Shown: positions 88-27,138 of the stretch, in pieces
Position numbering within the stretch: position 1 is the first letter of the stretch
Layout: each line of letters begins with the position of its first letter
Source: a virus
Length of the DNA: 36,189 nt
Strand: one strand, 5' to 3'
IMG/VR virus record: IMGVR_UViG_3300049043_000005
Span: 1 to 36,189 of that record
The notes under the pieces: generated by a model
The model's input: the letters and a program-made list of their open reading frames with translations, nothing else
Told to the model about the DNA's origin: nothing
Database searches by the model: none
Program-made: the position numbers and the translations under genes

Positions 88-95
88 CAAATTTA
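88..95 (-). promoter_or_regulatory. Bacteroidota-type -7 promoter box
   Basis: The minus strand reads TAAATTTG followed by CAC, matching the TAnnTTTG consensus. It overlaps the stop codon (93-95) of the giant gene and precedes the truncated gene that starts at 77. No clear TTTG was seen at the -33 position, so the call rests on the -7 box and its placement. Confidence 0.4.
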
Positions 96-3000
96 CTTCT
101 CTTCATCTTTTTTTATTTTAGCATACTCTTTGGCAATTCTTATGTTTTGCTCTCTATTTATGTTCCTACCAACAGCTGAAGTGTAATCACCCATATAGTT
201 GTATATCTCTTGGTCGGTCATATTTTGGTCGTAAATGTATAGTATTTTGGCCCTGGCTACGTCATCTGCGGCATACATCAATTCATTATACTGCTGAGGT
301 ATATCTGGTCCTTTTTTCGCTACTGCATTAATTCTGTTTTTGAAGAACTCTGCGTCCTTTTCATCAAGCTTTCTTACTTCAGCCTTTATTGAATCGATAG
401 TTCTATTGTATGTTTCCGCACTTACCTTTTGTTCGTTTAGATTGTAAAGCTTTTCACCCCACTTGTCTGCTTCTTTTTTTAGAAACAATCTTCTGTCATT
501 GCTTTCTATGTTAGCTTTATCGACTTCTTCTCTCTTCCTGTAACTTTTTGTATCTGGGTTTGTTACTCCGACAAATACCTTCGTGGCATCAGCTCCCAAC
601 CTTTCTCCTACACCCTTAGATATATCCTGAACATCTTGAATTTTCATACCATTCGGGCCCTCTAATTCGTATTTCCTAGAAAAAGCGTCAAGTATAGAAT
701 ACGAACCCATAACAATCAGAGAACTATGAGGGCTTGTAATAATTTTTTCTGTAGCTGCTTGCAATCTTTTTGGTCCTAATCCCAATCCTTGTCCGATAGC
801 TTTATAAAAATACGGTACATCTTTATCGAATAAATCCTCGTATTGGGGAGATGGTTTTCCTTGAGAAGTTTGCTTTGCGTAGTCCCTGCTAACAATTTGG
901 TCTCTAAAGGCATCATAATTTGAGCTGTAAGTGTACATAGTTGCGAAAACAGGGACCGAAGTCATTATCTCCTTGTCTAATTTACTGATGTCTTTTGGAA
1001 GATATGAACCTACAGTTTTAAGTGCAATCTTTGAAATGTCATCATTTATCCTTGGTTCACGGTTGTTTTGACTAGCAACGTATGTCTCAGCGCCAATTTC
1101 CAACAAGTTGGCGAAAGCCTGTAGCTGTTGGGTTTTTGCTATCTTTAAGTAATACCTATTACCATCTTTATCTTTAAATGGAGTAAGTATAATCCAGTTC
1201 CTGAATTTTATTTCATCGGATATATCCTCCATATCATCGTCTCCAAGTGATGCATTAAACAGAGCTAAGGCAAAAATGGCTACCGATAACTGAGCTAGCT
1301 TGAGGGCAAACTGTTTAGGGTTGTTTGCTATATAATTTGTAGATACTCTGAATCCTTGAAACGCTGCGTTAAGGTATGGTATGGCGGACTCTCCAGCCTT
1401 AGTCAATTCACCGCCTTGAGAGAAATCTATTATCTCTCTGACCAAAGTAACGGCTTCCTCTATTATAGGCTTTGCTGCTTCGCTATTAATATCTACCCCC
1501 GCCTCTTCAAGCCTCTTCTCAACCAATGACTGAAATATACCTAGCCTTGGAGCTATTTCAGATAGTTCTCCTAGATAGCCCAAGTACTCTCTACCTTTGG
1601 TTAAGACTTCAGAAGCCTTCATACCAAGGCGAGCCATTCTTCTCTGCTGAGCTGAAGATGGATTACCAAGTCCAATACTTTCCTCTCCTTCCGTGGAAAG
1701 AAACTCCATACCGCCTCCAAACTTTATGTAAAGTTTGAACCCACTTGTCATCAGTAATCTTACTCTTAGCACCACGGATGTAGTCCATTCCTAGCTTAAA
1801 CATCGCTATTGGTAGCGGTACGTTATCGTAAAAATCAGTGAACATCAATATATGGGTAAAATCCCTAGGTACGTTCTTGACAACAAACAACGGGTTAAGT
1901 TGAGTTGCCAGCATTTTTAACAGTCTTGCCCCAGTGACTATGCCAATAATATTCTGGGCTTGAGGAGAAAGTAACGCATATCGCTTCATATCATTAAGAG
2001 AGCTGTACAAATCGTTCCTAAGATAAAACTTTTGCTGAACCCCCTGCTTTCTTCCTTTTTGCGTATAGTACACAATTTCGCTGAACCCAGTTTTAGCTGT
2101 TTTAGATATCCAAGAGGCATTGGTTGGAACATCAACTGCTTTCCCCAACTCTACGTGTATCTTGTTTTTAGCCATCCTAGTAAAGGCATTTTTTGCGTAT
2201 ATACGTAGTAAGTACCTCGAATTGAAAAGCATTTCTTTATCACTACCCTCTTTCAGTCTTTGGATTATTGGACCAGTGAACCTATGTTCACTCATCATAT
2301 TTGAATCCATATCTTCAAACATATGCTCAAGGAACACACGAGGCTGATAGTCGAGCCCAGCTAACTGCTCATAAAGCTTTTCGCTTATCATACCTTCTCT
2401 ATACATCTCATCAAGTATTGATGAAAATGCGTCAAAGTACTCGTCGGCTCTTTCATTTAGCTTAGCAAACGCTTCATCTCCCATTTCAGCTTGGAGTCTT
2501 GATAACTCAAGAGATGCGGTTAAACCATCTATGTTTTCTGGATGTGTTGGTGGCTTTGCTTCCGCCATCTTTTTTTGAGCATTTAACGCTTTTCTTAGCG
2601 TCTTATCGTAGGATGGCGTATTAGGCTGAAGATTGTTAAGTTTAGCCATCGCATCATTGTACTCAGCCAATGCATTATCATACCTTTCGGCAAAATTTGC
2701 ATCAATCGTAGATATCCTACGGAGGACAATAATCTTGTCAAGAAGAGTATTTTCCTCTTGGCTAAGCCCTTTATAGATTCTTGACTCCCAAGATTTTACA
2801 AATGCCAATGCCCTTGAAGATGCCCCAGCCTTGTTGACGATTAAGTTTTTCGCTCTTTGCAAGCCAGCTTTAAGAACTTCCGCCTTAATAAGGTGCTGCC
2901 TATCCAACAGTTTGACTATAGCGTTCTTTATCGTAAAAATCGCTTTGTTTGTCTCTCTTTCAATCTTAGACATAGAGTCTAGATAGGCTTTGTCTATGTT

Positions 3001-6000
3001 TCCTGTGTAGCTCTGTGCGTCCAATGCGTCATTAGGGACATTGTCATTAGCGACATTATCATAGATATCAGCGGCCTCTTGTGCCCCCATAAAACGGCTA
3101 GCATCTCTTATGAATTCCGCTCTGTCAACAAACATCGTGACATTCCCATTAACGTCTTTTTCAGAACGACCTAAAAGATAAGCGTAAAGTCTACCTTTAG
3201 TAGTACCTAAAGCCATTCTTTTAACCTTACCGATATCTTTAGCCGACGGCTTTTCAAAAACCCGCCCTGCAGGTTGTACCACCTGTTCAGCTCTAAGCCT
3301 GTCCTCCGACATACTAAAAGGCGTTGCCTTCCTTTCTTCCTTAGACATCAATGCCCTTTTTTCGGCATTTCTGGCCTCTGCCTCCCCAGCAAATAGCATA
3401 TAAACGTCATCAGAATCTATCTCGTTATCAATCAACCTGTTTAATGTGAGCTTTAATCTTCCTAGCTTTTCATAGCTTGATTCGACAAGTTGAACATAGG
3501 TTTTATATTCATTGTAACGAGCAATTGAGCCATAATTATCAAAGTTTGAAAGCTCGCTTGATGACTCTTTGGTCAAGTCATCCAAAGTTTTGCCATACAA
3601 GTCTTCTAGTTTTTCTTTTAGCTCCTTAGACTTAATCAAAGCGGTTTTCCTTAAATCCTCGGTAGCCTCTATGGCATCTTCTAGTAATTTTTTTGCCTGT
3701 TCTGGATTAGCGCCCCAATTCAAATCATCGATGTGCTGAATTGCGTGTTGGACCTCGTGAACTATAGCCAGATAAACTGCATTTGTCCCAGCGTCAATAA
3801 CATTTTTGTCTATCTGTATAATCCTATCAACAGGGTCATAAAGTGTACCTTGCCCATATGGGCCGATAAGCACGTCAACATATTGCAAGGATGGATAGTA
3901 GTCCAACACAGTTTCGTTCTCTTGAGTACGAGGCTCGTCTATAGGTCTTTCGGCTATTAAATCAGCAAGACTTACAATTTCATCGTGAACTATTAAATTA
4001 TTAAGCGCATTGTCAGACAGCTTTAGTGGCTCAAGTTCATATCTCCACACTTCATCAGCCCCACGTTCCCATCCAGTTTGATAATATATTTGCTCTGGGT
4101 TAAGGCCTTTATCCTCTAGCGCAATAGCTCTCTTCATAGATTCACTAGCCCAGGAGGACATCAATTCCAGGTATTTTCCGTCTTCCCCTATTCTCCTAGA
4201 ATTCACAAGCTTTGTGCCGAATCTTTTCCCGCTAATAATCTGGGCTTTAGTTCTTTTAATTGGTTTCTTACCGTCCCTTGACCTTATGTACGAGTCAAGT
4301 GTTTTTGGGGATTCCGCTTTGTTGCCCTCGTCCCAGCTAGACTTATCGGCCTTATCAACCATCCGCTTGAAGTCAATCACATCGCTCATAAAGCTGCCCT
4401 CATCAAGCATCGAATTCTTATCGGTAAAAGCTCTATAGTAATCATTGCTTAGACGCAAAGCCTCGTTTCTAATCTTTGAGTCAATGTTGGGGTCTCTATG
4501 TATTTCATAGAAATAATGACCAAGACCGTCTGGTATTTTCCATCCAAGTCTTTCTTGGACCTTCCTTAAAGAAGCCCTAGCTTCGTCTCTTTTCTATGAG
4601 TTAAACCAAGAAACACCGTCTTTTGCAAGGTATCCCTCTGCCGTCATAACTTGAATTTCGGCTATAAATCCATCAATAATATCAGAGACTTCTATAAGCC
4701 TTTTAGGATATCCTAGTTCTGTGCTTTCGTTAACTCGTCTTTCTTCATTTTTCTTTCGAGGATACTCTTTTTGTATGAGTTCGTATATCTTATTAGCATC
4801 GTCTTCGTTTTCCACAATGATATTAACTCTTGCCCCGTCTCCAAGTTCTTCGGTAGCCCCAAAATACCATCGCAAAGCTTTTACAGCCGCTCTTGATGGC
4901 CTTTTGATAGAGAAAGTGCTAACAAAAGCACCGTCAGCTTTTGACGCAAAAGATTCCGCTATTTCATTTAGTTTTCTGCGAAGAGCATAAAAGAATGTCT
5001 TATTATAAGCAAAGGTTGACTCAATTACTGGCTGGACTTCTTTCCTTATCTCATCAAGACGTTCTTGCTTGTCTTTAGGTAATTTCTTCTTCTGTTCACT
5101 TAGTATAATCTCTTCCTCTCTTAATTTCTTATACTCAGCAATCTTTTTCTCGGTGCTAGTTAAGGTCGTTTTGAACTCTTTAAGAAAGTTATCTCTAGAA
5201 TATCTTCTGATGTCATATCCTTCGTCGTTTTTGTCTTTCGGCTCGTATCCTTTTGGCTTGAATTTGGCTTTTGCCCCTTCGTAGTAGTAGGACTGTCTAA
5301 TCCTAATATTTGCTCTAACATCGACATTGCTTCCGAGTACCTCATTCCATATTTTTTGGAATTCTCTGAGTTGTTGTTCATAGTTTTCTTGTTTTCGTTT
5401 ATAATATTCTTCGTTTGATTCGTCTGCTTTTTGCTCCCATTTACCAAAGGGAAGGTGGATAATAGATATCTTTATTTTCGTTTTTATTGACAGAAAAAGA
5501 ATCGATTAATTTTGACTCGTTAAGAGCCAAAGATAAAGCATTAACCTGCTCGTTCGTCATTTTTTCTTCAAACTCAATAAATATTTGTGGGTAATGGTCC
5601 AGATTACTGCCTTCATCCCTCTCAAAAAAGGGCATATTTATAAGATTATTTTTGTAATCCTCCTCTTTATAGGACCTCTTTTCAATGATAACTGCATCTT
5701 GGTTGTACCTTTCGGCAAACCTAGAAATCATATCAGATATAGCCTGTTCGTTGGATTCTGGGGTAAGTATCAACCTCATATTCAACGAAGGCTCAAAAAT
5801 TTCATTCCAACTGCCAATATAGTTATCACCAAACTGCACAGCCACACCTCTGTGCTTAGCCACCTCATTCTTTATTGTCCTTCTAGCTCCTTCAGTGATT
5901 TCCTGTCCAAGCTCTTCTAACTGTTTTCCATACTTGATTTCATCACTTGTATTCCCTTGTCTAACCGCTTCATCAAATTTTACCGACAAATCCTTAATTT

Positions 6001-9000
6001 CAAATCTCTTCTTTTCGGATACCCTATACTGCACCCTTTCAGTGGTTGCTGGAGTCATCAAAACATCAAGGCTCTCCACGAGCTTAGGTATTGACCCCAA
6101 TGGAGTCATTATCTTCATCTGCTTAACCTTGCGAGGGGAAGGTCTTTCTTGAGCTTCATTTATTGTCTCCGTAGCTTCATTAACAGCTTCCAAATCAATA
6201 ACTTCATCTAGCTGGATTAAATTGTTTGTCGGAGAGTCAATAATGTCAACCATCTCTTGGTCATACTCATCCTCCATCTTACCGTCTTTACGTACTTGAT
6301 TTGGGAGTTGCTTTAATTTTCCTGGCTCTTCCGTGATGATTTTACGCATTGCATCTGAATAGTCAATATCCATAGCAAACTTATTCCTTTTAATTTCTGC
6401 GTAAAGTCTTTTTTCAAAATACCAAAGGACAGCTTGAACATCAGCCACGGTTAAATCATATCCAGCCTTACTAAGCTTTTCCTTAGCTTTATTTGCTGTA
6501 TTAATCATAAACTCTCGCTCTCCAGCCCCCATAGGAGCATCATTTAACTCAGTAAAAGCGTCCTTATAGATAGTATTAGCAGCTTTTTCAATTTCAGTCC
6601 CGTTTTTGAATTTCTTTTTCTTATATGATTGTGCGTACTTAGTCACCTCTTTCAAGACAGTACCTTTTCTTGCAGTAGGGGGATATCTAACCAACTCCCT
6701 AAATCTAGCCAATCCCTTTTCACTTATTGTTGGTATAAGAGTACCTCTATACCTATTGAATGTTCTGGTCCACCACCTATCCATCGTCAGATACTCTTCC
6801 TGACCAGATAGATTGGCGTAAAAAGCTCCAAGCTTAGGACCAAATATTGCAGCGGATACTGGCAACATCATATCTACCTTATAACCCGAACTCTTAGTCT
6901 TTTTCTTGCCATCTTCCTCGCTATCCTCGCCAAAATCGTCTACTTTGTCACCATATTTCTTTTTTATATCTCCATACCTCATCTTCTCTAGAAGAATGTC
7001 ATTTATATTCGTGAGGTCATTTCCATTTTCTTTTAAGATTTTATTTATTTCTCTGACGTTTGCCTTCATTGAGGCATTCCTTGTTCCCCCAAAATTAAAT
7101 TCTTGAGAAACGAATCCATCTTTTAAAAAAGAATTATATAACGATAGTGCATAAGTATAGTTATTTTCTACCTTTTGCCCATCTGACGTTATAGCAACTA
7201 GCATCGTGAATAGATTTCTATCACTTTGTTCTCTCATAGTAGGCATAACTTTAGCTAGCTCATCTAAAGCTTCTCTAAATTTAGGGCCATACCATCCTAC
7301 TGCCGATTTCTCGCCCAAAGCCTCAATTTCAAATATTACTTCATCGACCATATAGTCAGAAATAACATCTGCGGATTTATCGCTAAAATCTTTTAGTGGT
7401 ATCTTCTTATATTTCTTTTTTTGCCTTAACTCAAGAGCTTCGCCTATTTGACGGTTAGTTATTCTTTTAACATCAGGCAACCCAAATTCCGATAAAGACT
7501 CTTCTTTCCTTCGTAATCCAAGGGCGCTCCTACGAACACGTTTATTGCTATCATTAGCCATCTCTCCTGAGATTTCACCAATATCTTCCCCAGAACCAAT
7601 CTTTTTAGACAAGTCGGCTAGCATTTCCAAAAATTGGCCTTGAGTTGGTCTTACATCAATACCAACAAGACCCAACAACTTGGCGAACTGTTCCATAAAC
7701 GTGTCTATAATTCCACGCTTAACTTTGACACTTACGGAGCCATCCGCTATAAGTGACGCTAGTTCTACAACAAACTCTTCTCCAACATCCTCCTTTTCAT
7801 ATTCACCGCCAAACCGTTCAAAATACGCATTTAGAACTGGATTGCTAAGCAAAGACCTGCGTATACCATTGAACAATTTATTTATACCCTCTTGACCAAA
7901 AACAGCGGGAATAACTTCGTGTAATCCTTCGTGGTAGGCGGTATTTGCAAGTAAATGAGGCACAAAAAGAGCAATATTTGTTTTACCTTTCCCGCCACCA
8001 AGATATAGGCCTCTAGATTCATCTACAACTTTTCTTGCTTTTTCTTCAGTATATCGTTTCCCATTTTCATCCAGCCCATAATTCATCAAGTAATCTACAA
8101 GCGACTCCTTTGTATAAAAAAGACCAACATCAATCTTTTTCCCAAGAGCATTGATTGATTTGATGACATTCGTTATAGATTCAGCGGCTCTTGCTGCTTG
8201 TCTTTTACTGCTTTGATTTGTAAAGAAAGTATTAGCAGCGTTCTTGATAAAATCATATAGAGTATCTCTGACGTTTTCAGCGCCCTTTTCGTCTACGTCT
8301 GTAAAAGAATCTGGATTCCTCGCTGGTTGAGACTGTTCTAAGTTATCGGCATTCTGCCTGGCTTGTTCTTTTTCTTGCTCAGACTCTTGAAGAATTCCAC
8401 CTGTTTCAGTCGCTTGAGCGCCTGTTTCATCGAGCTGTACTCCCCAAGTTCTTGCCCTGCAGCGACTTCACTTGATACTTGTTGTTTTTCTTGGCTATCA
8501 TATTTACTTTCTATAGTTTGTATTTTGGCCATATCGGCCTTGATTTGTTCGACAATTGCTTTTTTCCCCTCGGCATATTTAGCTTCCCTAAACGCTTGCA
8601 TATTAGCCACAACAGATTGCTGTAAAGCATAAAGTCTCTTCCTTATCCTCTTGGGAATATTGCCCGTAAAACAGCATATCCTTATCGGCCCTTGATTTCT
8701 GTTCCGCCAGAAGGTCTCTTAATCTCTTTTCAAGATTAATCCTTTCTGGGGAATTAATTGCTAGTCCAGACTTGCTAAGAATCTGATAAATCTGTGCGAT
8801 TTCGGAGTTCATTTCAAGTCTAGTCCTCATACCAGGAATTCGACCTAATACATTAGGGCTTTTAGCTAAAACAAAAGACCCACCACCCATAACTGAGCCA
8901 AGAATTACCGCATCAGCTAATTGATAAGGGTCAAACTTTTTCCCCGCCATAGTCCATTCCATTCCTTGGGTAACAACATCAACGATACCTTCTTCAAACC

Positions 9001-10497
9001 CCTCCTCGACTAAAGCTCTTACGGAGGCTGGTAGGGCACCAAACATAATATCTCCTAGTTCTTTTTTACCAGCCTGTTGGATAGCTCCATATAAACCTCT
9101 CAAAGCATTTCTATCGTAACTAAATATTTTTTCTGTGTAATATTCAGCAAGTCCAGCTACAGTAGCGTAAATTGTTTTTTCAAAGGCATTATATTTTGGG
9201 TCATAGGCTACACGAGTCCAAGCGTCTCCAGCCGCAGAAGTAGCCATCAATCTCAATCCAGTACTTCCAAGAAACGCTGCAGATAAAACCTGAGGAATCA
9301 TTTCTAACGACTCAAGTCCCAGCATACCCAACGCAGCACCATAGTTACCATCATTTATATTCCCAGTTATTCCTTTTTGTATTTCCTCTATTGAATAACC
9401 TGATAAGAACTTCTCTCCAAGAGCGGCACGGTTTTGCTGGTCAATACCCTCCTTAGCAAAATCTGTTAATTCATCCCTTAAAATATTATCGTCCCCAACC
9501 TCAGCGCCACCCCTTAAAGTTTGACCAAGAGCAGCAGCAGTTGCTATAAAGCCGTAAACATTTCTATTAATAAATCTAGACCCCCAATTTGAGTTTTCCG
9601 CTTCTTTTATAGACTCTTCTTTTATTTTTTCAAATATTTCCTCTTGGTATTTTTTTGCTTTACTGCCGACCCAATCTATTGCCTCTAACGATGGATTCCC
9701 ATTAAAATCCTCCCATTCAGGGACATATTCTCCGTATGCTTTTGCTTCTGGGACTAATGCGTCATAGGATTTTTTTACTTGCGGAAAAAGGTCCTTAATT
9801 GCTAGCTGTTTTTCTTTATCAGCAGAAATCAATGCGGCCTGCTTTTCGGATTCCGAAAGAATCAAACGGTCTTTTGTGTAAGGTCCTGGGATTCCCATTC
9901 CGACCATCGGAATTCCCATCTCATAGTTTGGAGTCGATGCTTTTATTTTGTTTTCCTTTTCTTCAGCAGACGCAACTCTGGAAATTGCATCGTAATACCT
10001 ATTATAAGATTCTTCTTTTGGCTCAGTTGTTTCCCATATATAGCCTTTATTTGGGTTTTCTACTTCACCGCCATCAACATCAAGAAGCCCAGCTTCTTTA
10101 CGGCCTTCAATAACCATATTTACTACATCATCAGGAAGACCAGTTTGGTTTGCTGGGTAGAAAAGGCTGTTCCCTTTACACTAAGGGGGTCTCTATATTG
10201 AAACCCAAATTCGTCAGATGTCTTTCTTCTCCTTTCTAATTCAGAAGAAAGGTCTGTAAAGTCGGGAGACAAAACCGATGAAGAATTCGTGGTTTCCCCA
10301 TCTAAAAATGAGCCCAACCTTGGACTTGGTGAAGTATAGCTCGAACTTTTTTTTTTAGAATTGTAATAGGATTCAGCCTCCTTAATGTGAGCTAATCCCC
10401 ATCCAGCTTCTGCTATAGAGCTACCTATGTCTTTAGCAGTTCTCCCTTTGGCTACTGCTTCGTCAATAAACTTTTTTAAAACTGGGTCTAGTGGCAT
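93..10497 (-). CDS. Giant polyvalent virion protein with two metallopeptidase motifs and a RelA/SpoT-like segment (about 3467 aa, indel-broken)
   Basis: Pieces at 10497-10123, 10117-8603, 8610-8338, about 8440-5441, 5450-4594, 4593-1663 and 1775-93 join into one frame. Breaks lie near 10140, 8630, 8440, 5448 and 1750, with an in-frame TAG at 4594-4596. The 10405 nt minus one net insertion gives 3468 codons. Approximate domains: N-terminal virion region (1-800); HEGLH metallopeptidase motif (about 855) with an acidic EEFVVE about 50 residues on; a helical module with GPKLGAFYANLSG and LTMDRWWTRTF; a RelA/SpoT-like stretch (about 1850-1970: GDGARVNIIV, AEIQVMT); a second motif HEVQHAIQH (about 2246), preceded by a TGW...WRYEL signature typical of large polyvalent phage proteins; a C-terminal region with NPLFVVKNVPRDF resembling LPD38. 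Known family: polyvalent proteins co-injected with DNA. Inferred role: largest internal virion protein, last of a three-gene ejection set. ATG at 10497 follows the previous stop closely. Confidence 0.75.
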
Positions 10498-10502
10498 ATA
10501 TT

Positions 10503-11825
10503 TTATTTTGGTGTTCCCCCTTTTGCGTTTACTGCTTTAACTGCCGTTTCCCCAACGGCTTTGTATATGTTTCTTTTTTTCAAGTCTTGTTGCACCGTAG
10601 AATAAGTTGTGCAGTTGTTGGTCTTCCTGTCGTTGACGGGAGGCCGCTAAAGTCTGCCTTAGCCCAAACCAAATTACCTTTTTTATCAAAGGTTAAGTCA
10701 GTTATAGCTAAGTCATTTCCGCCAATCTTGACTGTATAGTTTTGTGGGGCTATAATTACGTTTCCAGAGGCATCAGCTGTAGGTTGCGGAACACCAGTAA
10801 AAAAGGCATCCAATTCGTTCACATCTGCATTTGTCAGTCTCCCAGGTCCATTACCCCCACCACCTCCACCTGATACCTGTTTAGCTGGAACCATATTTTG
10901 AATTTGTGTAGACAATTGCTTTTTATAATCATCTAGCACTGCTTTAAACCTCATTGGGTCGTTAAGTATTATATCTACCTCCTCTTTTGAAGGTGCGCTT
11001 CCTTTTAGTTTATAGGCCCCTCTTGTAGCTATCTCTAATCTTCTATCATTAGCTCCAGGGTCATTCGCCATATCTAAATTATAGTCAAGGTTCTGTAATT
11101 CCTTGTCTATAATCATCTTTGTATTGTATGACTGCGAGGTTCCTGTATCTATTATAGCAGAAGGTCCATAAAGCTTAATAGCGTTCATTGCCCTATTAGT
11201 AATGTCAACGTCTTTTATAAAAGGATTTTCTTTTTCTTACGCCTAGAGAATTTCCTCCAGGACCTTCAGCGACACCAACAGAAAAACCTAGCGATTCTCT
11301 AAGAGGAACTCTGGTTTTCCCATCGGAAGACAAAACAGTTACTACCCCATCAATTACCTGCGGGTCATAATTAAAACTCGTGTAGTCTGCAAGCATCTTA
11401 TCTATATTTGCCCTAGTGCTTTCATCATATGCATTTGGGTTATCTTTTACTTGTTTGTATGCAGTTCTACCTTCTGTAGAAGCAATTACACCTATATTAA
11501 GGGCTTGATTAAAGTCCTGTCGAGCTTGTTTGAATGCTGCCTCAGCCGTTTGGTCTCCAGAAATCGCCCTTTCTCCAAGTTCCTCCAACTGCTTATATGC
11601 CACATCTAAAACAGCTCGCCTGTTTGGGTCTAGCTTAAACGAGTTATCGTAATAGTTACTTTGAGCTTGAGTGAAACCAAGCTCTGAAGACTTTTCTTTT
11701 TTTCTTAATCTAGCTTTTTCTTGAGCTAATTCTTGCGCTTTGGCATAACTCCTCCCCATTTCGGAAGTTTTTGCTCCAAAGTCGGGCAATTGCCATACCG
11801 ATGCGCCTATTACTGGTTGAGCCAT
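10503..11825 (-). CDS. Probable internal virion protein (about 440 aa, indel-broken)
   Basis: Two pieces (11825-11205 and 11188-10580) and a short third-frame tail form one protein. Near 11228 an extra A in an A-run moves the frame, and the corrected text runs GVRKENPFIKDVDITNRAM. Near 10609 one base is missing, and the C-terminus ends YKAVGETAVKAVNAKGGTPK. The 1323 nt give 441 codons. The first 120 residues are charged and helical (KAQELAQEKARLRKKEK), with a glycine run followed by GPGRL near residue 320. No enzyme motif was seen. The start codon overlaps the previous gene's stop (TAATG). It sits between a hydrophobic-ended small virion protein and the giant protein, the same order as T7 genes 14, 15 and 16, so a T7 gp15-like ejection role is inferred by position only. 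Confidence 0.6.
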
Positions 11826-12668
11826 TACTTTTCAAATCTTTTAATAAGAGCCTTTACATAACTGTGAAGCTTAGACTTGTCATCATTTGCTACATACCTC
11901 TTAATGTTCGACATCTGTTTGGGGTTAAAAAATGTACTCACCACCAGTGGCTTCAGCAATCTTTTCCCCATTCTGCATAATATCTATTGGGTTCTTTTTG
12001 TGAGAGAATGGGCCAGGGGTTTTTACAACCATACCCTTTTTTGCCACCCCCGCTTTTATTTTTGCTGCCTCAATATCTGCTAAACCTCCAAGATATCCCT
12101 GTACTGACGAGCCAATTTGACCTATACCAGCCCCAATATTAGCCTGACCGACTGCCCTTTCTCCAGCGGCTCTATTAAGGTCAGTCTGAAATCTTTCCTC
12201 TCTCATAGCAAGCCTGGCTTCTTGAGCCTGTCTTGTCCTTTCATTGGCCGCACCTAAATTCTGGAGAGCTTCAGTCTGTCTTTGTTGCTGAATGTCAGCG
12301 ATGCCTTGAGCCTGTCTCTGTGCTTGCTGAGTAGCTGCACCGATACCTCCAAGCAAAGCCCTACCGCCAGCACCAGATAAAGCCTCTGTAGTCCCAGCCA
12401 ATCCCGCCTTGATGGACTCCATCTGACGGTTCATAATGTCTTGGTTATAGGCATCTTTGTAGGCTTTGTAATACTCTGATGGAGTTCCAGCTATTGGTGC
12501 ATTAAGGTCTGGTGCGCCTTTCCTTATTTGCTCCATATCTTTTTTCGCCCTTTTGGCCTGTACCGCTCCCATAATAGACTGACCAACCCCAGCAAGACCA
12601 CCTATAATAGCTGACCCAGCCAACAAGCCACCTACAACGTATTTCTTCGGATTTTTACGTGATTTCAT
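11825..12668 (-). CDS. Probable internal virion protein with glycine-rich hydrophobic N-terminus (about 280 aa, indel-broken)
   Basis: The main piece (12668-11925) stops at a T-run. Removing one T near 11930-11936 continues the protein as GEYIFNPKQMSNIKRYV and ends at 11825, giving 281 codons. Residues 10-36 (VVGGLLAGSAIIGGLAGVGQ) are a long glycine-rich hydrophobic segment that could insert in a membrane. Residues 85-180 are Ala/Gln/Arg-rich and helical (QQAQRQAQGIADIQQQRQ), a coiled-coil-like region. This pattern resembles T7 gp14 and similar internal virion proteins that form an ejection pore. It is the first of three adjacent candidate ejection genes. Assignment is by composition and position, not by sequence match. 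Confidence 0.6.
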
Positions 12669-12681
12669 AAGTGTAAAGATA

Positions 12682-15600
12682 CTATTCAGTTACTTGTTCG
12701 TTGTGAAGCCTTGACCTAGTCAAGTATACGTTAAATGCGTAGGCCTCTATCGGTGTTGTCAAGCTGTTTGTTAAATCGATGATAAAGAACGGTCCTCTAA
12801 CAGGGTCACCGTCAATAGACGCTTGACTATCAGCCACAAGGATAGTACCAGTTGCTATGGCCATAGTGCTCCCAGATAAGTTCCCAAGAAGTATCGTGTT
12901 GGTCCCAGATGCCTGTATTGTGGCGTAACCAGTGGCTCCATTGTAAATAGTAGTAGTTCCACCACTAGTCAAAGCCCCTATAAAGGAATTCCCGCTAACT
13001 TGGAATGGGGTCGTGATTCTGTTTCCCAATGTCAGAGTAACACCACTAGCCCAAGTCCCCGTTGCTGTAACGTAACCGATAACGGCTCTATTTGATACAG
13101 CGTTTGTCGAAGTTGCGTTAAGCCTTGGGACGTTTGCATAATAAGCGCCCTCTCCTAAGCGATATGTTCCCAGTCGCCACAGTAACGGTATCGCCAAGAT
13201 GCTTGACCACTGACGGTAAACTTAAATGTCCAAGGAGCATTCCCCTCTATGCTGAAAGCCTCAGCTGTCTTGACCATTGAGTTGTTGAATGCAGATATAA
13301 GCTTTACTGAGGATACATTTCCGCTTCCATAGAATTCGTTCCTATTAGCCAAATCGGTATGCCTATACATCTTACCCTCTTTGAACGTATAGAGGTAGTT
13401 GTCAAGATGCTCGTAAGCCTCTGGTTTGAACGAATACCTCGTATTCCACACCTTGTCCTCCATATCGTAGGCAATCGTATCATTAAAAAGGTCACCGCTT
13501 GAGTTTACATTCACATAGGTGATGTCGTACTCCCCGTGCATAGGGTCAATACCGCCAATAGTCTTGTAGGTTCCGCTAGAAGATGCAATGATGAAGCACT
13601 TATCTTGCGTGTAAGCGTCAATCTTTGCCTCGCTGATAGGCTCCAACCCATCTGGCCCAATGCGTACAATCTTGCCAGACCTTACGTCTGAGAAGTATAC
13701 TCTTCCGTTGTAAGACTTAACACTTTCAGGGTTTTGAGTCCCAAAGTCCCCAGCATAAACAGATTGAACTCCAAGTAAATTAGTTGACACGGTTACATTT
13801 GATGTACCGTCAAGGTATTCAATGAGGTTTCTGTTTATCGGGATAAGCGATGATTTAACTTCCTGAAGAACCGTAATGCTGTCTCCGTTGTTCAGCATCT
13901 GCTTAATAGCCCCGTAGGCGTTAGGTAGGTCGACAAAGTTACCTTGACCGCCATTGAATGATGACAGCTTTAATACAGATGAATCTAATGAATAAGGCTC
14001 TGAGTATGTTATTGATGACTTCCTTTTAATCTGTTTTACGTTTAATGACTCCGCATTTGGTCTACCAAAGCCTAGATAATTCGATTCGTAAAAATCGCTA
14101 ACGCTAAGGTCTTCAACATACAATGTAGAATATCTTATATTAAACACATCCGAAGGGTCCACATTAGGCCCTCCACTAACAAACGGATTTAGTTTAATTT
14201 GTCTAGGTCGGCTATAGCAGTCTCCATTGGATGTAACTATTATCGAATCTGTTGTTCCAGTTATGTTCGAGTAATTAAAATCCCAAGTACTATCTATTAA
14301 CGCATTGTTCTGAGTAAAAGTAACTACTAAGTTTCCAGATGTATTAACATACGTAGATTCAACGGTTCTAGTAGCTATAAGTGGAGTATTTGGAGGAGTG
14401 ACCCTTTGGGTAAATTCTATTCTATCTCCAGGGTATATTTGGGTGAACCCAGATGATATTGTGAAAAGGCCATTCAGTGCGACTAGACTTTGAGTGCCAG
14501 CGGAAGTATAAGACCTATCTCTTAAAATTAGTTTTATGATATCTTATTCCTCCAACAGTTGACGAAACGTCTCCATACAACCCTATCTCATTGTATACTG
14601 GCGTATTAACAGACCCTACTGGCCTGTATATTTCTACGATACAATCATTAGGCCACCTAGAGTTATTTGAGGTTATGTCGCTTGATGAAAACAATAAATA
14701 CCCCTCGTCTTTCACAGACATAATCCATCCTATAGCTCTTCCGCCTCCATATGTGGTTGTATTGATTGGAGTGTCTTGTGACGTATAATAATCATAACTT
14801 ATGATATCGAATATATAGTTTCTTGGATAATAAATTTTGCCATTCAATGGGTCGGTATAACTCACTATTCTTAGCTTGTCTCCCTTTGCGAACGAGTAAT
14901 TGAATATTGCTCCCTTTGACTCCTTGTACGAAGAGTCTTGCCCTTCAAGATGCCTCATCGATAAAAATATATTTCTTCCAACAGTGGAAGATGTTGAAGA
15001 GGCCAACATACCTTCGGCTACAGAATACCTATAAGCAAAAGAGTAAGTGCTATATGGAGAATATACTATTTGGTAATTCTTTGCCCAAGATGGCGGCTGA
15101 TTAGATAGCCTAATAATGGCCTTAGAGGGCCCGAATGGAGCGTCTCCTCTTTCGCCTTCAGTTTCGACATAATAGCTATCTAATGGATTTACAGAAGAGC
15201 TTCTATTATAGTTGTCATAATATACCACGCCAAATTTGTGAAATTGGCCAGACTTAAATGTCTTATTATTTACGAACGTTGTGAATACCGTTGACGATGG
15301 ACCTATAAGCTTATAATTATTAAGAGTGCTATTAAAAATTCCTTGGAAGGTTAATCCGCTTGTTGTAGCTATGGAATCTGGAAAACTCCATATAAGAGGA
15401 GGGAATGTTAATGTGTAGTAGGCTGGAGTGCCGTTATTATAAGTTCCGCTTACATCAAGCACTGAATTGGACTGTATATTGAGGGAACTTGTCCTGACAT
15501 CCATTGTTAATATACCACTAGAAATAGTACCGCTTCCTATAGTGACACCTATTGTTCCATTCAGTGAAAAAGTTAATCCGCTAACAGGCTGTCCCTGCCC

Positions 15601-17106
15601 AGTTATTCCAGAAACAGCTAATAAATTTGAATTATTGGAGCTTGTTGTTCCTATGTATGTCCCAGAAATAGCTGAGTTAACTGATGAGGCTAATGCGTTT
15701 AATGTCGCATATCCAGACGGAAGCGATATTGTCTTTTGTATAGGTATATCTATTTCTCCTAGAGTTATTGATGAAGCAATAGCGTACCCAAAATTATAGT
15801 CGGTTGCACTAGGCGGTATGCCTGGGTTATATATCTTTTCAATTAAATACTTACTCGCTTTTAATGATATAGACAGAGGTATGGTTATAGCCTTTCTTGA
15901 AGAAGCTGGGGCCTTATTGAAGTCAAGGCTAATTTTCCAGTTAGTAGATACAGTTCCACCAGTAACCGTTACTCCAGTAACTGTTTCATATGAAGATATT
16001 ATTGACGGTATATTTAATACATCTTCAAAGTTAAATAAAACATTGCCAGAGACTTTGTCTGGTATATCAAAGAATTCCGTGTAATTGCCATAAGACAGCC
16101 TATTCCCAGATATGACTTGAGATTGACTCTTTAATGGGACATTATCGAACAACTTGTTATTTTCATTGTCAGATAGAGGATTAAGTAGGTTTGAATTAAA
16201 AAAACGGACTGAGCCAGTAGAAATTGCTCTATCATTATCTATCTCCCTGAAAAAACAAAAATTTGTTTGATTTTTTGATTTTGAAAAAATCCGTATCTTA
16301 GATACATCGCCTTTAGAGTATTTAAAATAAACATCTATAGCGTTAAACTTTTCGATATACTTTGATTCATCGATTCCATCAAGAACGCTATAAGTGTTTA
16401 TTGATATATCAGAGTGGGGAGATAAAGCCGAAAGCTCGCCATCTTCATATACATACTGATAGGCAAATTGAAAAAAATCTTCTTTTAAGTAGTTAGAATT
16501 TATATTTGAGTCAATGGCTAGCGCTATTGATAATGGCTCCAAAGGAGGGGCCTTAATCGTCGTGATGCTCAACAGTTTCTCATCGTCCGTGTAACCAGTA
16601 GCTCCAGCAGCCTTGTAGGGGTAACCACTAACCCCAGCTGTATTCGCCAGTGCCTTTGTGGCGTTAATCTTCTTGGGGTCTGTAACCCCATCCGTGAAGT
16701 ACAAAAGCGTGTCACCGTTCTCCTTAACGAGGCAATCAGCCTTGACAAAGCCAGTTGCTGTAAACCCAAGAACCGAGTCTCTGTAAACGAGCCTTACAGT
16801 GTTCCTTCGGCTCGTGTACTGATAGATGCTATGGTTGCCACCTGAATTGTGGACAAAGTAGAATATCTCTCCTGTCTGTTTACAAGCTGTTGTACCGATG
16901 ACTGTATTAGTTCCAGGAGGTAAATCATCACCACTTGCATTATAGCTAACGAGTGTATTCCCAAGAGCGTTCTTAATGACCCCTGCGTTACCGCCCTCGT
17001 CATCAGACATCTGCACATTGAGCGCATCAACCATCTCCACTGATTTAACCAGTAGATAGTCGTCGTCTTTATTGAGATACCGAGGTATTAGCTTATCAAT
17101 AGCCAT
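12682..17106 (-). CDS. Large tail protein resembling crAss-like 'stabilization protein' (about 1473 aa, indel-broken)
   Basis: Three frames join here: 17106-14515, about 14520-13155 and 13197-12682. Extra bases near 14520, 13192 and 13160 explain the breaks, and 4425 nt minus three gives 1474 codons. The N-terminus (LIPRYLNKDDDYLLVKSVEMVDALNV, then GNAGVIKN) is the part I recognise: tail stabilization proteins of crAss-like phages open with a similar 'polypeptide of DALN(V/I)..., G(V/I)(I/V)KN' signature. The rest is rich in Ser, Thr and Gly with many beta-strand-like repeats and a segment IGPDGLEPISEAKI that looks like a propeller or sheet module. It follows two connector candidates by 2 bases, fitting a tail tube or nozzle role below the portal. 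The C-terminus runs through an Ig-like region (VTATGTWASGVTLTLGN). Confidence 0.65.
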
Positions 17107-18745: not shown

Positions 18746-19575
18746 TTATTGAAACTTTTCGAGTCGCTTTAGGATTTCTTGGTGAACAAGGCTCCCCTTT
18801 TCGCTTAGGCAGAACTTGGTCATCATATCGACCCCATCCTGTCCTACAGGCGTAGCGAGAATCAATCTGTTTGAGTCGGCCCAGAACACCCCGTCTTGGT
18901 TAATCCTAAGGATACCGTTGGAGGCTGCAAGGCTGATAGATGCTCTCATCTTAACGAGAGGATTATCAAACAGTTCGATAAACGCCTTTGGGTTGGACTT
19001 GGCTTCAATCAGAAGCTCCCTACGAATCTCTTGGTTGCGCTGTTCAAGGCTAATACCCAGATACAGGATAACAGGGATAAGCTCGTCAATAGACTTGTCA
19101 CGAATCAATGAGATAGCGTCGTGAATGACAAATTCATCTTGAAGAAGTGTATCTGTCTTTTTTTCGTTGTTAATCTCAAAGAATAAGTTACCACCATTTT
19201 TCACATTGCCTGGATGTGCATCCAAATAATCCTGTAAATTAGGTTGGCTTGGGGGACACCTAAGAGCTTTTCAACAAATACAATATGTGAACGCCTAGCA
19301 TTAGGAGATTGCTTATCCACAAAAATCGATGGCTCGTTTGGACAATATCGTATTGACCTAACAGTATCAAGTTCTTTATCGTATATGGTAATATCCGCTT
19401 GAGATAATTTAAACCATACACCACCTCCATCTACTAGTTGATAAATCTTCTGTTTTCGACCAGTATTCTGTGCGGGTTCTTGCCTGCGTCGAGGCTTAAA
19501 AATTGGGACAGCTTCAATCTGAGCTGCGTCAGGGGCTAGGACCTCGTCCTCCCTCTGGAGTTGTTGTTTTGCCAT
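18746..19575 (-). CDS. Conserved post-capsid phage protein, function unknown (about 276 aa, indel-broken)
   Basis: Two pieces (19575-19201 and 19225-18746) join if one C missing from a C-run near 19254 is restored, giving LLGVPPSQPNLQDYLDAHPGNV and 277 codons. The N-terminal 45 residues are polar and basic (FKPRRRQEP), probably disordered. The core has RSIRYCPNEPSIFVDKQ, NLQDYLDAHPGNVKNGGNLF, a helical stretch around HDAISLIRDKSIDELIP, and a C-terminal part ADSNRLILATPVGQDGVDMMTKF. I recall similar proteins beside capsid genes in marine phages, but no function is known to me. It lies between two terminators, so it may be expressed separately from the capsid gene. A head-associated role is inferred from position only. 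Confidence 0.6.
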
Positions 19576-19667: not shown

Positions 19668-21096
19668 CTAACGCTTAATTAACACGTGTCGATTTGCAGC
19701 ACGAGTTACAAGAGAAATCTCGGAACGGTAGTTAAACTGCAGTACGTCGAGCGTTGAGTTGTTGGCTCCGATAAACGAACCAGTCAGCCAGTGCTCCATC
19801 TCACGAGAAACACCGTTGGTTGACTTGTAGTTGATTTCGAGAGGGAACTCACGGTTTCCAGTCTTAGGGTCGACTACGGTTGCCATAGGAATCATCACAC
19901 CAGCAAATCCAACCATTCCAGTGGGAGCTGTGCTAACTTGAGACGTACCAAGCAAAGTAGGCTCGTTCAAGAGCTTCCAATCGTGCTTGTGGAAGGTGTA
20001 ACTACCACGACCAAACGATTTAAACCCAAGTTCAACAGCCATATTTGGATTATTGTTAAATGCACCAAATTGAGTAGACAGACCTGCTGTTAATGATGTG
20101 CCTGAAGTTACAGTTCCTTTAGCTAAAAGGTCATCAATAGCCAAATCTTGCAAACGGTCAACATACAAAGCGTATTCTGGTCCAGCTCGATTACGGTCAA
20201 GGGCGGTAATAATTGCGTCAAAATCAACAAGTTCGTTTAAATAACCGTTTGTAACAAGTCCCCTGTTCTCAAGAGCGCTGAAGTAGCCTTCAGAACCAGA
20301 AATATTTGCAGAGCCGAAACCAGCAGCAGCTGCAGTATTAGCGTTTGTTTGACCAAGAAGCATCATCATTTCACGCTTGTCTGATAAAACGCTGACGAGT
20401 ATCAGCTTCTCCTTTAATAAACCAGCGATAGTCTCCTCCTCCTACGTCAATCCATCCAATGTTTGTTGCTTGAGAACCAGTAACCTTGAAGATTTCTTTG
20501 ATAATCATATAAGCATTTGTACGCTGGATTACGTTTGACTCAAGATATTCGCTGAGGCCTGGTCAGTTCCTTGTCCATATAAGTTACCGACAATAGGTAA
20601 GGTATACGTTACTCCGCTAGTTGGTCCTGTTAAAGTACCATTGGCAAGATTAGAAAGCGTAATGGATGTAGCTCCAGTAGCAGCAACAATAGCACGCTGG
20701 GTGGTCGTTGCCATATCCCATAGAACAACATCATTTGGCCTCAATGGAGCTGTACCGCTAGCATCATTCCATCCAGAAGCGACAGATATTACAATATTAC
20801 CAGATGCTGCGCCAGATGCTGTAGCTGTAAATACAGCGTTTGGATGCAAGCGCTGCTCCTCCCACCAAGTTACTTGGTCAGCGGTTCCAGCGGTTTTAAC
20901 AGCACCAACAAGTTGCAAAAAGCCAGTAATACCTTGGCTTCCATAGGTCTTAACCAGCTGACTGCGAGCGTCAGGCTTGTTGACGGTGTTGATAAAATTA
21001 CCCAGAGAGATATAGGTCTGTGGGCTAAGGGTTCTAAAATACGTTTGGTGTGGTGTTAGTTGTTTGCGTAAATACCGCACCTGATGCGTTTGCCAT
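19668..21096 (-). CDS. Major capsid protein (about 475 aa, indel-broken)
   Basis: Four frame segments form one protein. ATG at 21096 starts MANASGAVFTQTTN. An extra T near 21036-21039 moves to the frame that carries VFRTLSPQTYISLGNFINTV. A missing base near 20550 leads into EYLESNVIQRTNAYMIIKEI. An extra T near 20390 leads to SDKREMMMLLGQTN. The corrected length is 476 codons. The region GGGDYRWFIKGEADTRQR followed by a REMMML helix is what I recognise from major capsid proteins of crAss-like and related Bacteroidota phages (HK97 fold). The middle has an Ala/Gly/Thr-rich insert that may be a surface domain. Gene order scaffold, capsid, hairpin, connectors supports it. The stop is TAG, followed at once by a hairpin, which argues against TAG reassignment. 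Confidence 0.8.
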
Positions 21097-21123: not shown

Positions 21124-22248
21124 TTAGAGTTTAATCCGCATCATAGAGTCATTTTGACCCATAATGCTTTCAAGCTGTGCTAACAGGGTGTCAGTCTTGA
21201 CCTCCAGGCCCTGCATTAGGAGCGCCTGTTTGTACGTTGGCTACGTTTTGTACAATCTTCCGCTGTCCGTCCGACAGTCCCTGACTATAAACAGCCTTGA
21301 CAATTTCGTCAATGTTGTCTACAACGGTTCTGTGCATACTAAACAGCTCGTGATTCCACTGCCCGTTACCGTCGACGTATTGGTCGAAGAATGAGTCCAG
21401 TTGAGCGTTTTTTGATTTCAAGCTGTTCTTGTAAGCATCGTTTAGACCGAAGGTGAACGTCTTCTCGCCATTAAGCTCAAAGTCAATCCCCTCAAGTGAA
21501 TCTATCTCACTAGACATTTCTTGAAGCCATTGCTCGTCTACAAACGTATTCAGGTTCGTATTCTTGGTATTCTCCCGTTTCGGTTCTAGCCAAGTATCCG
21601 TTCCTGAGATTTTCAATCTCCTGACGAGCTTTATTAGCATCTATCTTGAGCTGAAGCTGTGCCATCTTCTGTTCTTTCTCTTCAAGGAATTCATCTCCAA
21701 TCTTATACTTAGTTTCTATAAGCATAGAGATATCATCTTGAGACAACTCAGGATGCTCTGCAGACATTTGCAACCTAACCAGATTTAAATCATCCATTTC
21801 GGATGGGTTCAACATCTGATAGCGAAACCAGTCTTCAGGGGAGCGCCCTGTGTCACTAACAAATTCAAGGATGGGCAGCAACCGCTCATCGATATTTGTT
21901 TCTTGCGTTTGACCCATTAGAGCTTCAAGTCCAGCACCAAACTTCTCTTCGAGGTACGAGTTGATGAAGTCAATCGTCTCCTCGTCGGAGACACTATCAT
22001 CATAGTACTCACCTTGGTCTTCGTATGACCCCTGCATATATACTGCACTGCTGTCATCCTCAGACTGAGGCTGGAATTCGGTCTGACCTTGAAATTCAGG
22101 GTCTGATGTCAAAGAACTATCACCAGCGTTTGGTTCGGAGCTGGCAGCCGATGGTTCAGTTTGCGGTTCGGGACTTGGTGGAGTGTCGAAGATTTCCGAT
22201 TCCAAGGTCCTTAGCCAAGTTTTCAAGTGGATTGAAGTTTGTTTCCAT
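21124..22248 (-). CDS. Scaffolding-like acidic protein upstream of the capsid gene (about 373 aa, indel-broken)
   Basis: ATG at 22248 gives METNFNPLENLAKDLG. An extra base near 22210 leads into IFDTPPSPEPQTEP, another near 21545 leads to TFVDEQWLQEMSSEID, and a third near 21192 to VKTDTLLAQLESIMGQ. The 1125 nt minus three give 374 codons. Residues 20-75 are low-complexity Ser/Pro/Glu/Asp, residues 75-110 are very acidic, and a long helical region (ISMLIETKYKIGDEFLEEKEQKMAQLQLKIDANKARQEIENLRN) is coiled-coil-like. Acidic disordered N-terminus, central coiled coil and position immediately before the capsid gene are standard for scaffolding proteins. A promoter box (22273-22280) precedes it, so scaffold and capsid may form one transcript that ends at the hairpin at 19619-19643. 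Confidence 0.65.
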
Positions 22249-24676: not shown

Positions 24677-27138
24677 TTAAGATGGTTGTGTCATTTCTTG
24701 TTGGCCACCAAAGATACTATTCATAAGCTCTTCATCTGCAGACATCAGCTCCCCCCTCTCACCCTTCCTTTGGCTGATTAGCTTGGATTGCTCAATAGCT
24801 TGAGCCTTGACACGCTCATCCTTAGCCTTCTCCTTCTTGTCTTCGAGCTGTTCTCTAAACATCTTATCACCTTGAGTAATCATATTTCTCATATCCGCTT
24901 CCAATCTAGCTAACTCCATTTTAAGAGCATATTCCGTTTGAAGCAATTGGGCTTTTGCCTGCATTTCCAGTTGAATCTTTTGGGCCTCAAGTTGAGCTTG
25001 AGTCTGCAGCTCTTGAATCTTTGCTTGAGAGGCAACCATAGTGGTTTCTTGGTTGGCCTGTGCTTGCAGTTGACTATTTTGAGCAGCTAATTCGGAATTT
25101 TGCCGAACTCTCTTCTTTCTTCTGACAATTAACAGCATTTCAGCCTGGTCTACATCCTTTAATCTCCTAATAGCTATTGCATCTTCAAGGTCTATTTCCT
25201 TCTGAGCTAATGAGGCCTGAATGTTTGCTTCAAGATAAGCTTCATCTGTCTCATTCATTTCTGTGACCACCTTTACCCCGAAATTGTACATCGGTAAATC
25301 GGCAAAGGATGACAGAACCTCCATATTCGCTTTACCGATAGCATTCTCATATACCCTATAAATAACCGATTCCGTAGGGAGAATCTGAAGACACTTAATG
25401 ATGTCCTCGCAAACCTTCTCTGAACAGAACCATTGAAGAATGAGTAATGTCGTAGGTAGCGTTGTTTGAAGCGTCAATCGCTTGCTGACGAACACCAACC
25501 AAAGCATCGCCTTTCGGTGTAGAACCGTCGACAACCTCGTTAATGCCCGTGGTATCACGAATCATTCGCAGATAGTGGTTATATAAAGCTATAAGCTCAT
25601 TGATGTTCCGAATCTGATTCTCAATAGACCGAATTGGTGGGTTCTGAAAGCCACCCTCTGGATTCTTAGAGCGATAGTAGAACACACCAGTCTGCTCGTA
25701 GATATCTTGAATCTGCAGGGGCTGTAAGTCACCACCTTGACCAAGCTGCACGTTTTCAAGGCCCTCTACGTCAATAATAAGCCCATCAGGCTTGGCTTTA
25801 GCAATAGCTTGCTGAATCTTGAGGTGAGTAATCTGGAGTTGGTCAGCAAAGCCAATCACCGATGAAACCATTGACTTGGGCTGTAGTCTACGCATATTTA
25901 CAGCTACAGCGCTATAGGACATACGTGCCCTTGTAATGTCGTGAACATTCTTTGGCACATTTTTCTTCATCCCGTAAGCAAAAATCATATCGGTTCCAAG
26001 GACGTAAGTGCCCCCGTAAACCGTTGCATAGGACATCTTAAAGGGCTGCCTATCGTACACGCTTTCACGTGGTGGGGTGTACATAGCCCCCTTAAAGTAA
26101 AATCCCACATTACCGAACTTAGACTCCTTGCTCTCGTAGAACACGTTGTCAACGGACATAAACTCAAAGTCAAGCACCTCAACGATGTACTCGTCGTACC
26201 CGTAAATCATACGGTTTGTGTACCTATCGTAGTTTGAATAGCCGATTCTGCCTGGGTTGTTGGAGTATTTGTACTGAACATCCCTAGCAATCTTTTCGTA
26301 CTGCTCCTCAGTTAGCTCATCCCCTGCAATCCTTTTCAGCTCTTGAATGCTGAAGCCTTTTGATATGACCAGCGTAGGTAAGGTCCGCCATATTGGGGTC
26401 CTCTGTATAGGAGTGGACAAAGTAAGCTGGGTCAACATAATTCGTGGTAATCCCGTAATTAGGGTCATTTTCACGCTTTACAACAGCCATACCTAAAGCC
26501 ACAATGTCATTTACGCAACGTCTAAAAACGCCATCGTTAAAATCATTCCATTCAAGAGTTAAGTTTGTAGCAATCTGTGAAGCTATCTCCGCATTGGTCT
26601 TTATGTTGTTTTCAAGGAATATCTCGGCTTCTTCTGGGGTTTCTGGGATGTTATTATCGTCAACTCCAGTATTAACACCAGCCTGATTTGCCATTTGAAT
26701 AAGTTCCTTATTTTGAACTTGAAACTTAACTTTAGCTTTCTGTTTTTCCTTTTCTGAAATAGAAAGTGGGTCAACAGCCTCCACATTAGGGTAGGGCTTG
26801 CGTCCTAGAATCTTGTTAACGACAATGCGAACAAACTTAGGAACGATGGGGACTGGGGACCAGTCGATGTTAATCAAAGAACCATCCCCGTTGTTGGGGT
26901 CCAACGATGTGAGAATCTGCTTGTAGATAGCAACATCTTGGGTTCCGTTGGCGTAATCCCTGTTCCTTTCAAACTCCCCGTATCGCCTAGCAAACGCACT
27001 CTGTGCGTCATCAGTTCTACCCCATTGGCCTTCAATGGCCCTTGCATACTTTAAACCGTACTCTTTGGTCTGCTTCGCCTCTGTCGGAGCTAACGGATTA
27101 GGGAAGTTCCCACTAGGGAAGTTTATATTTTTAGCCAT
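24677..27138 (-). CDS. Portal protein (about 819 aa, indel-broken)
   Basis: Three frames join with one extra base each near 26355 (an A-run, restoring AGHIKGFSIQELKRI) and near 25420 (restoring the run into EKVCEDIIKCLQILP). The 2462 nt minus two give 820 codons. The N-terminal part (ALEDKG-like helices, NGTQDVAIYKQIL, VPIVPKFVRIVVNKILGRK) and the crown or clip regions fit large portal proteins of Bacteroidota podoviruses. The segment IENQIRNINELIALYNHYLRMIRDTTGINEVVDG is the long stem helix that portals share. The last 200 residues form a Gln/Ala/Lys-rich coiled coil (LQTQAQLEAQKIQLEMQAKAQ), a barrel or crown extension. It lies directly after the terminase gene with its own promoter box at 27164-27171. 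Confidence 0.8.

Follow-up and report, generated by a model that had tools for sequence, protein, structure and literature searches.

The analysed window is the whole 36,189-nucleotide stretch of the viral record IMGVR_UViG_3300049043_000005, and nearly 30% of it, on the minus strand between positions 93 and 10497, is given over to a gene for a giant protein. As recorded, this region (10536 down to 93) consists of seven overlapping stop-to-stop frames; read from an ATG at 10497 to a stop at 93, it comprises approximately 3,467 codons. We searched with the pieces individually; unbroken copies are present in relatives. In contig L001 (IMGVR_UViG_3300020204_002343) the same protein is read without interruption for 3,174 residues, a lower bound as the frame reaches the contig end, and in contig L003/L009 the C-terminal 1,105 residues lie in one frame. 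Apart from two whole-module differences, the window and L001 are 90-96% identical in DNA over their common parts, and the substitutions between them are mainly synonymous: dN/dS is 0.06 in the C-terminal piece, 0.12 in the RelA-like piece, 0.22 and 0.28 in the next two, and 0.44 and 0.56 in the N-terminal pieces, the value of 0.56 coming from the shortest piece, of only 60 codons. Of the six pieces compared, five thus have ratios between 0.06 and 0.44, and all six lie below 1. Frame breaks are found throughout the window; the portal, major capsid and other virion genes (24677-27138, 19668-21080, 18746-19575, 21191-22226 and 12682-17106) are split here and intact in relatives. Because genes broken across the window are whole elsewhere, the breaks are most simply explained as errors of the record, which as a whole seems to carry indel errors. 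On this sequence evidence the seven frame pieces are one gene. The intact relatives cover the protein from about position 9306 onward, so that the first ~400 residues (10497 to ~9306) are assigned by continuity of the frame. An earlier note on this DNA had joined the pieces into one text of about 3,467 residues, a reading that the single frame in L001 and the dN/dS values below 1 bear out; it had also asked whether better DNA would resolve into several separate genes, and the opposite is found, the L001 region being one frame.

The gene sits among virion genes. Terminase, portal and head or other virion-structural genes are followed by a first-slot gene (11925..12668, minus strand; ~300 residues in relatives), a second-slot gene (10580..11825, minus strand; 430-650 residues in relatives, split in the window, its layout taken from relatives) and then the giant. 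A scan of viral contigs using aligned first-slot sequences recovered 80 loci; at 56 of these a frame of 900 residues or more lies downstream, and nearly all of the 56 share the layout of a ~300-residue protein, a 430-650-residue protein and a giant. The giants at these loci range from 1,744 to more than 2,984 residues, with 3,347 in one contig (L106). The position of the three-gene cluster resembles that of T7 gp14/15/16. The C-terminal third of the giant gave zero matches in 32 terminase-related contigs, and the giants in these contigs were therefore located by position instead. The best available evidence that would place a third-slot protein in the virion is the record annotation of Cellulophaga phage phi18:3 gp123 (1,935 aa), a third-slot homologue, as structural by experimental MS/MS. 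This protein is homologous to phi46:3 gp120, and phi46:3 gp120 and gp121 match the C-terminal part of the window giant; the MS/MS homologue is thus tied to our protein by its slot and by way of the phi46:3 proteins, and neither the RelA module nor zincin 2 contributes to the link. As for the host, a search of a genome collection returned one 4.5-kb Bacteroidetes contig, which gives only a hint.

The conserved frame of the giant consists of an N-terminal helical core, a zincin and an LPD38-like C-terminus (all features of the giant are on the minus strand). The core (8603..10117, with EEGFEEGI at 8984-9007) was found by iterated HMM search to be common to ~20 other giants, and the same type of search matched zincin 1 (7541..8443, HEGLH at 7919-7933) in 27 giants. 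Further along the protein an LPD23 domain (4030..4143; PF18838, E 1.1e-8, 35.1 bits against a cut-off of 27) is followed by zincin 2 (3259..4029, HEVQH at 3745-3759 with GExEARNAE downstream), which the window giant has in common with L110, L112 and Pseudomonas phage AF gp16. Among 46 giants, 33 contain an HExxH motif, for which chance predicts ~0.01 per giant, and the other 13 have none. The C-terminal backbone (93..3207) is homologous to phi46:3 gp120/gp121 and to CDS0069 of Maribacter phage Panino; it contains, at 762-1241, an LPD38-like match (PF18857) of 26 bits (E 1.1e-5), slightly below the gathering cut-off of 27, and LPD38 scores 126.8 bits on the giant of a distant relative (G004). 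The two different HExxH motifs and the LPD38-like C-terminus that the earlier note had read from the letters are therefore both recovered, the latter with homologous C-termini in other phages.

Two observations on these homologues deserve mention in their own right. Panino CDS0069 (L006:13331-18820) is labelled a tRNA methyltransferase yet shares the C-terminal backbone of the giant, and is probably misannotated. A 140-residue stretch of phi46:3 gp120 (residues 588-727) is 81% identical to part of phi14:2 (NC_021806, 52155-52571); the former is the third-slot protein of a member of the Pachyviridae and its phi14:2 counterpart a structural protein of a 100-kb Cellulophaga phage, which suggests module transfer between distant phages.

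Between the two zincins lie two further enzyme-like modules. The putative RelA/SpoT-like synthetase module (4504..5505, spanning two frame pieces, with GDGAR at 4828-4842, EIQVM at 4645-4659 and GHYFYE at 4504-4521) matches Tas1/Apk1 (PDB 6ox6) in a profile comparison with an E value of 1.4e-5 over profile positions 147-331; Pfam RelA_SpoT gives E 0.0026 on the giant, below its cut-off. The RelA/SpoT-like segment proposed earlier thus has an independent profile match behind it. The ATP-site residues listed for Apk1 are R, K, E, Q and N (PMC12691689), and, assuming a 21-residue numbering offset, four of the five appear to be kept in the window (R330, probably K353, E382 and Q384) while N370 is replaced. 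A predicted structure of the stretch covering the RelA-like module, LPD23 and zincin 2 reached a pLDDT of 54, with VIA rows consisting of long helices; this model was set aside as too poor, and the RelA assignment accordingly rests on sequence.

The second of these, exchangeable module A (6233..7513), is a DUF7178 module. DUF7178 is matched in 7 of 11 module members (best E 1.8e-7), the window's own match being weak (E 0.066). Its model (pLDDT 69) aligned in VIA-align with Z scores of 7.1-9.6 to nine structures with HhH-GPD/glycosylase folds, the next row falling to 3.9; these included the queuosine-salvage protein Qng1/DUF2419, the phage thymidine-modifying enzyme PUGT and the 8-oxoguanine glycosylase AGOG. 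Foldseek found no significant match for the model in the PDB, a sequence search of the PDB gave nothing convincing, and among viral models the matches were to other phage polyvalent proteins. Since the Foldseek comparison was not significant, the glycosylase-like fold, which we regard as predicted, is called from VIA-align and its sharp drop in Z.

Module A is also one of two places at which the window and L001 differ by a clean module event inside the otherwise 90-96% identical background. In the first event the window's DUF7178 module is swapped for an unrelated module in L001; in the second, L001 carries an extra GNAT-like module, flanked by an exact 21-bp direct repeat, at a cassette site that is empty in the window (3208..3267, KDIGKVKRMAL) and holds a third, different sequence in L009. 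An independent trio shows the same behaviour at one site, where L151 has another module, L156 none and L158 a GNAT-like module, and further close pairs also differ by whole inserts. Pfam scans of the swapped modules gave only weak GNAT matches, below cut-off, and the designation GNAT-like thus reflects a motif together with these matches. Between close phages, whole modules are thus gained, lost or replaced at fixed sites, and the giant behaves as an evolving cargo platform; turnover of this kind among phages more than 90% identical suggests fast selection on injected cargo.

The definition of polyvalent proteins goes back to Iyer et al. 2017 (PMC5512222), who proposed their processing by zincins and listed RelA/SpoT, GNAT and LPD38 modules among their domains. 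The window giant joins several disparate domains in one polypeptide (LPD23, two HExxH modules, a RelA-like module and DUF7178), and since the defining features of the class that sequence can address are present, it is a polyvalent protein in the sense of these authors and belongs to a known class. We favor the reading, to which we give a probability of roughly 0.82, that it is a large polyvalent virion protein, last in a set of three of ejection type, and most likely enters the cell with the DNA, carrying several enzyme modules. Both parts of what the earlier note had proposed, one giant polyvalent-type protein and its position as third member of an ejection-type cluster, find support here, the former in the module content, the slot and the single frame in L001 and the latter in the layout of relatives. 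The giant would be ejected into the host along with the phage DNA, where its cargo might act on defence or host physiology as the earlier note suggested, and the embedded zincin or zincins may cut it into separate enzymes inside the cell; the RelA/SpoT-like module might act on nucleotide pools through alarmone synthesis, and the predicted glycosylase-like module on modified nucleic acid. A highly improbable alternative is that several distinct genes lie end to end at this locus. The seven frame pieces in the window and the annotation of the homologous region of Cellulophaga phage phi46:3 as gp120 and gp121 would fit it, but frame breaks occur elsewhere in the window too, and the single frames of relatives (at least 3,174 residues in L001, 3,347 in L106 and 1,935 in phi18:3 gp123) already contradict it. 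One could also suppose that the giant is mainly a structural ejection protein, forming a DNA channel like T7 gp16, with enzyme-like modules that have decayed or serve in assembly only. The slot would be as expected for such a protein, and the 13 giants that lack HExxH and the replacement of N370 point the same way; HExxH in the other 33 giants, the retained R, E and Q of the synthetase site, the dN/dS of 0.12 in the RelA piece and the repeated gain of whole modules argue against it, and we consider it quite unlikely.

Several giants repeat a short peptide of their own at module borders, where it may be a processing site: V[KR][RQ]x[ASK] in the window and L001, PKRQ in L110 and L150, FS[VLT]D in G002, [RK]xQ[ILM][DE] in L127, L151 and L158, and ESRKF in G004. 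One scenario, which we hold to be doubtful, is that the repeated short peptide, different from phage to phage, labels the borders between modules, that it is cut by the embedded zincin post-injection and that imported modules gain the linker of the recipient. It draws on the recovery of linkers in a few giants by an unsupervised motif search (best z 5.1 and 6.4), on sites that lie closer to module edges than random (p 0.00025; p<5e-5 for motifs picked by eye, the motifs having been chosen partly in this way after the sequences were viewed), on synonymous codon differences between copies and on the occurrence of different linkers on the same module in different phages (L127 versus G002). These observations speak against the alternative that the peptides match by chance or were left behind by recombination rather than being processing sites, but we nonetheless regard that alternative as probable: in an unbiased edge-against-edge test none of 42 giants reached p<0.05 (Fisher p 0.79), simple repeat counts fell mostly within those of shuffles, and a matched linker was significant at both edges in only two insertion events, one of which is the exact 21-bp DNA repeat, as recombination would leave. 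Given the null edge test and the two two-edge events, linkers as a general feature of giants were rejected. A literature search on linkers in polyvalent proteins returned nothing of relevance, and the word 'linker' is absent from the main text of PMC5512222. Were the scenario of phage-specific cut sites true, it would describe a phage polyprotein system in which cut sites and protease co-evolve and module borders double as cassette exchange points; and should the linkers prove to be processing sites, peptide mapping could directly test zincin cleavage of polyvalent proteins as already proposed in the literature.

With regard to known systems, T7 gp16 is comparable in occupying the third of three slots and is likened to the window giant by position alone. 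Closer counterparts are phi18:3 gp123, phi46:3 gp120/gp121 and Panino CDS0069, which occupy the same third slot, those of phi46:3 and Panino with a C-terminal backbone homologous to the window's; they differ from the window giant in being ~1,400-1,900 residues long, and an iterated HMM search found no RelA or zincin-2 module in phi46:3 or Panino. Pseudomonas phage AF gp16 and the 3,125-residue giant of Limnohabitans phage DC33 are also giants in a virion cluster; the former has LPD23/zincin 2 in common with the window and the latter a DUF7178-type module, and similarity beyond those modules was not found in these searches. DC33 (L109, PQ492659) is filed under Inoviridae despite its 39 kb and its giant, and this taxonomy looks wrong. 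As a separate observation, residues 1255-1363 of the G002 giant (L106:3374-13414) form a RadC/JAB domain (E 5e-9) in a phage giant, and Iyer et al. (PMC5512222) list RadC solely among the polyvalent proteins that conjugative elements encode. The likeness to Tas1/Apk1, a type VI secretion (p)ppApp synthetase, lies in an aligned module with R, E, Q and probably K kept; the difference is that the window's putative synthetase module is embedded in a phage virion protein and has N370 replaced. The polyvalent proteins of Iyer et al. 2017 are alike in being giant, multidomain and virion-linked, with zincin, LPD and RelA/SpoT domains, and GNAT modules were already described there. To that picture the present analysis adds the gain and replacement of modules between near-identical phages (more than 90% identity), and the presence of a Tas1-like module and a DUF7178 module of predicted glycosylase fold in the third slot.
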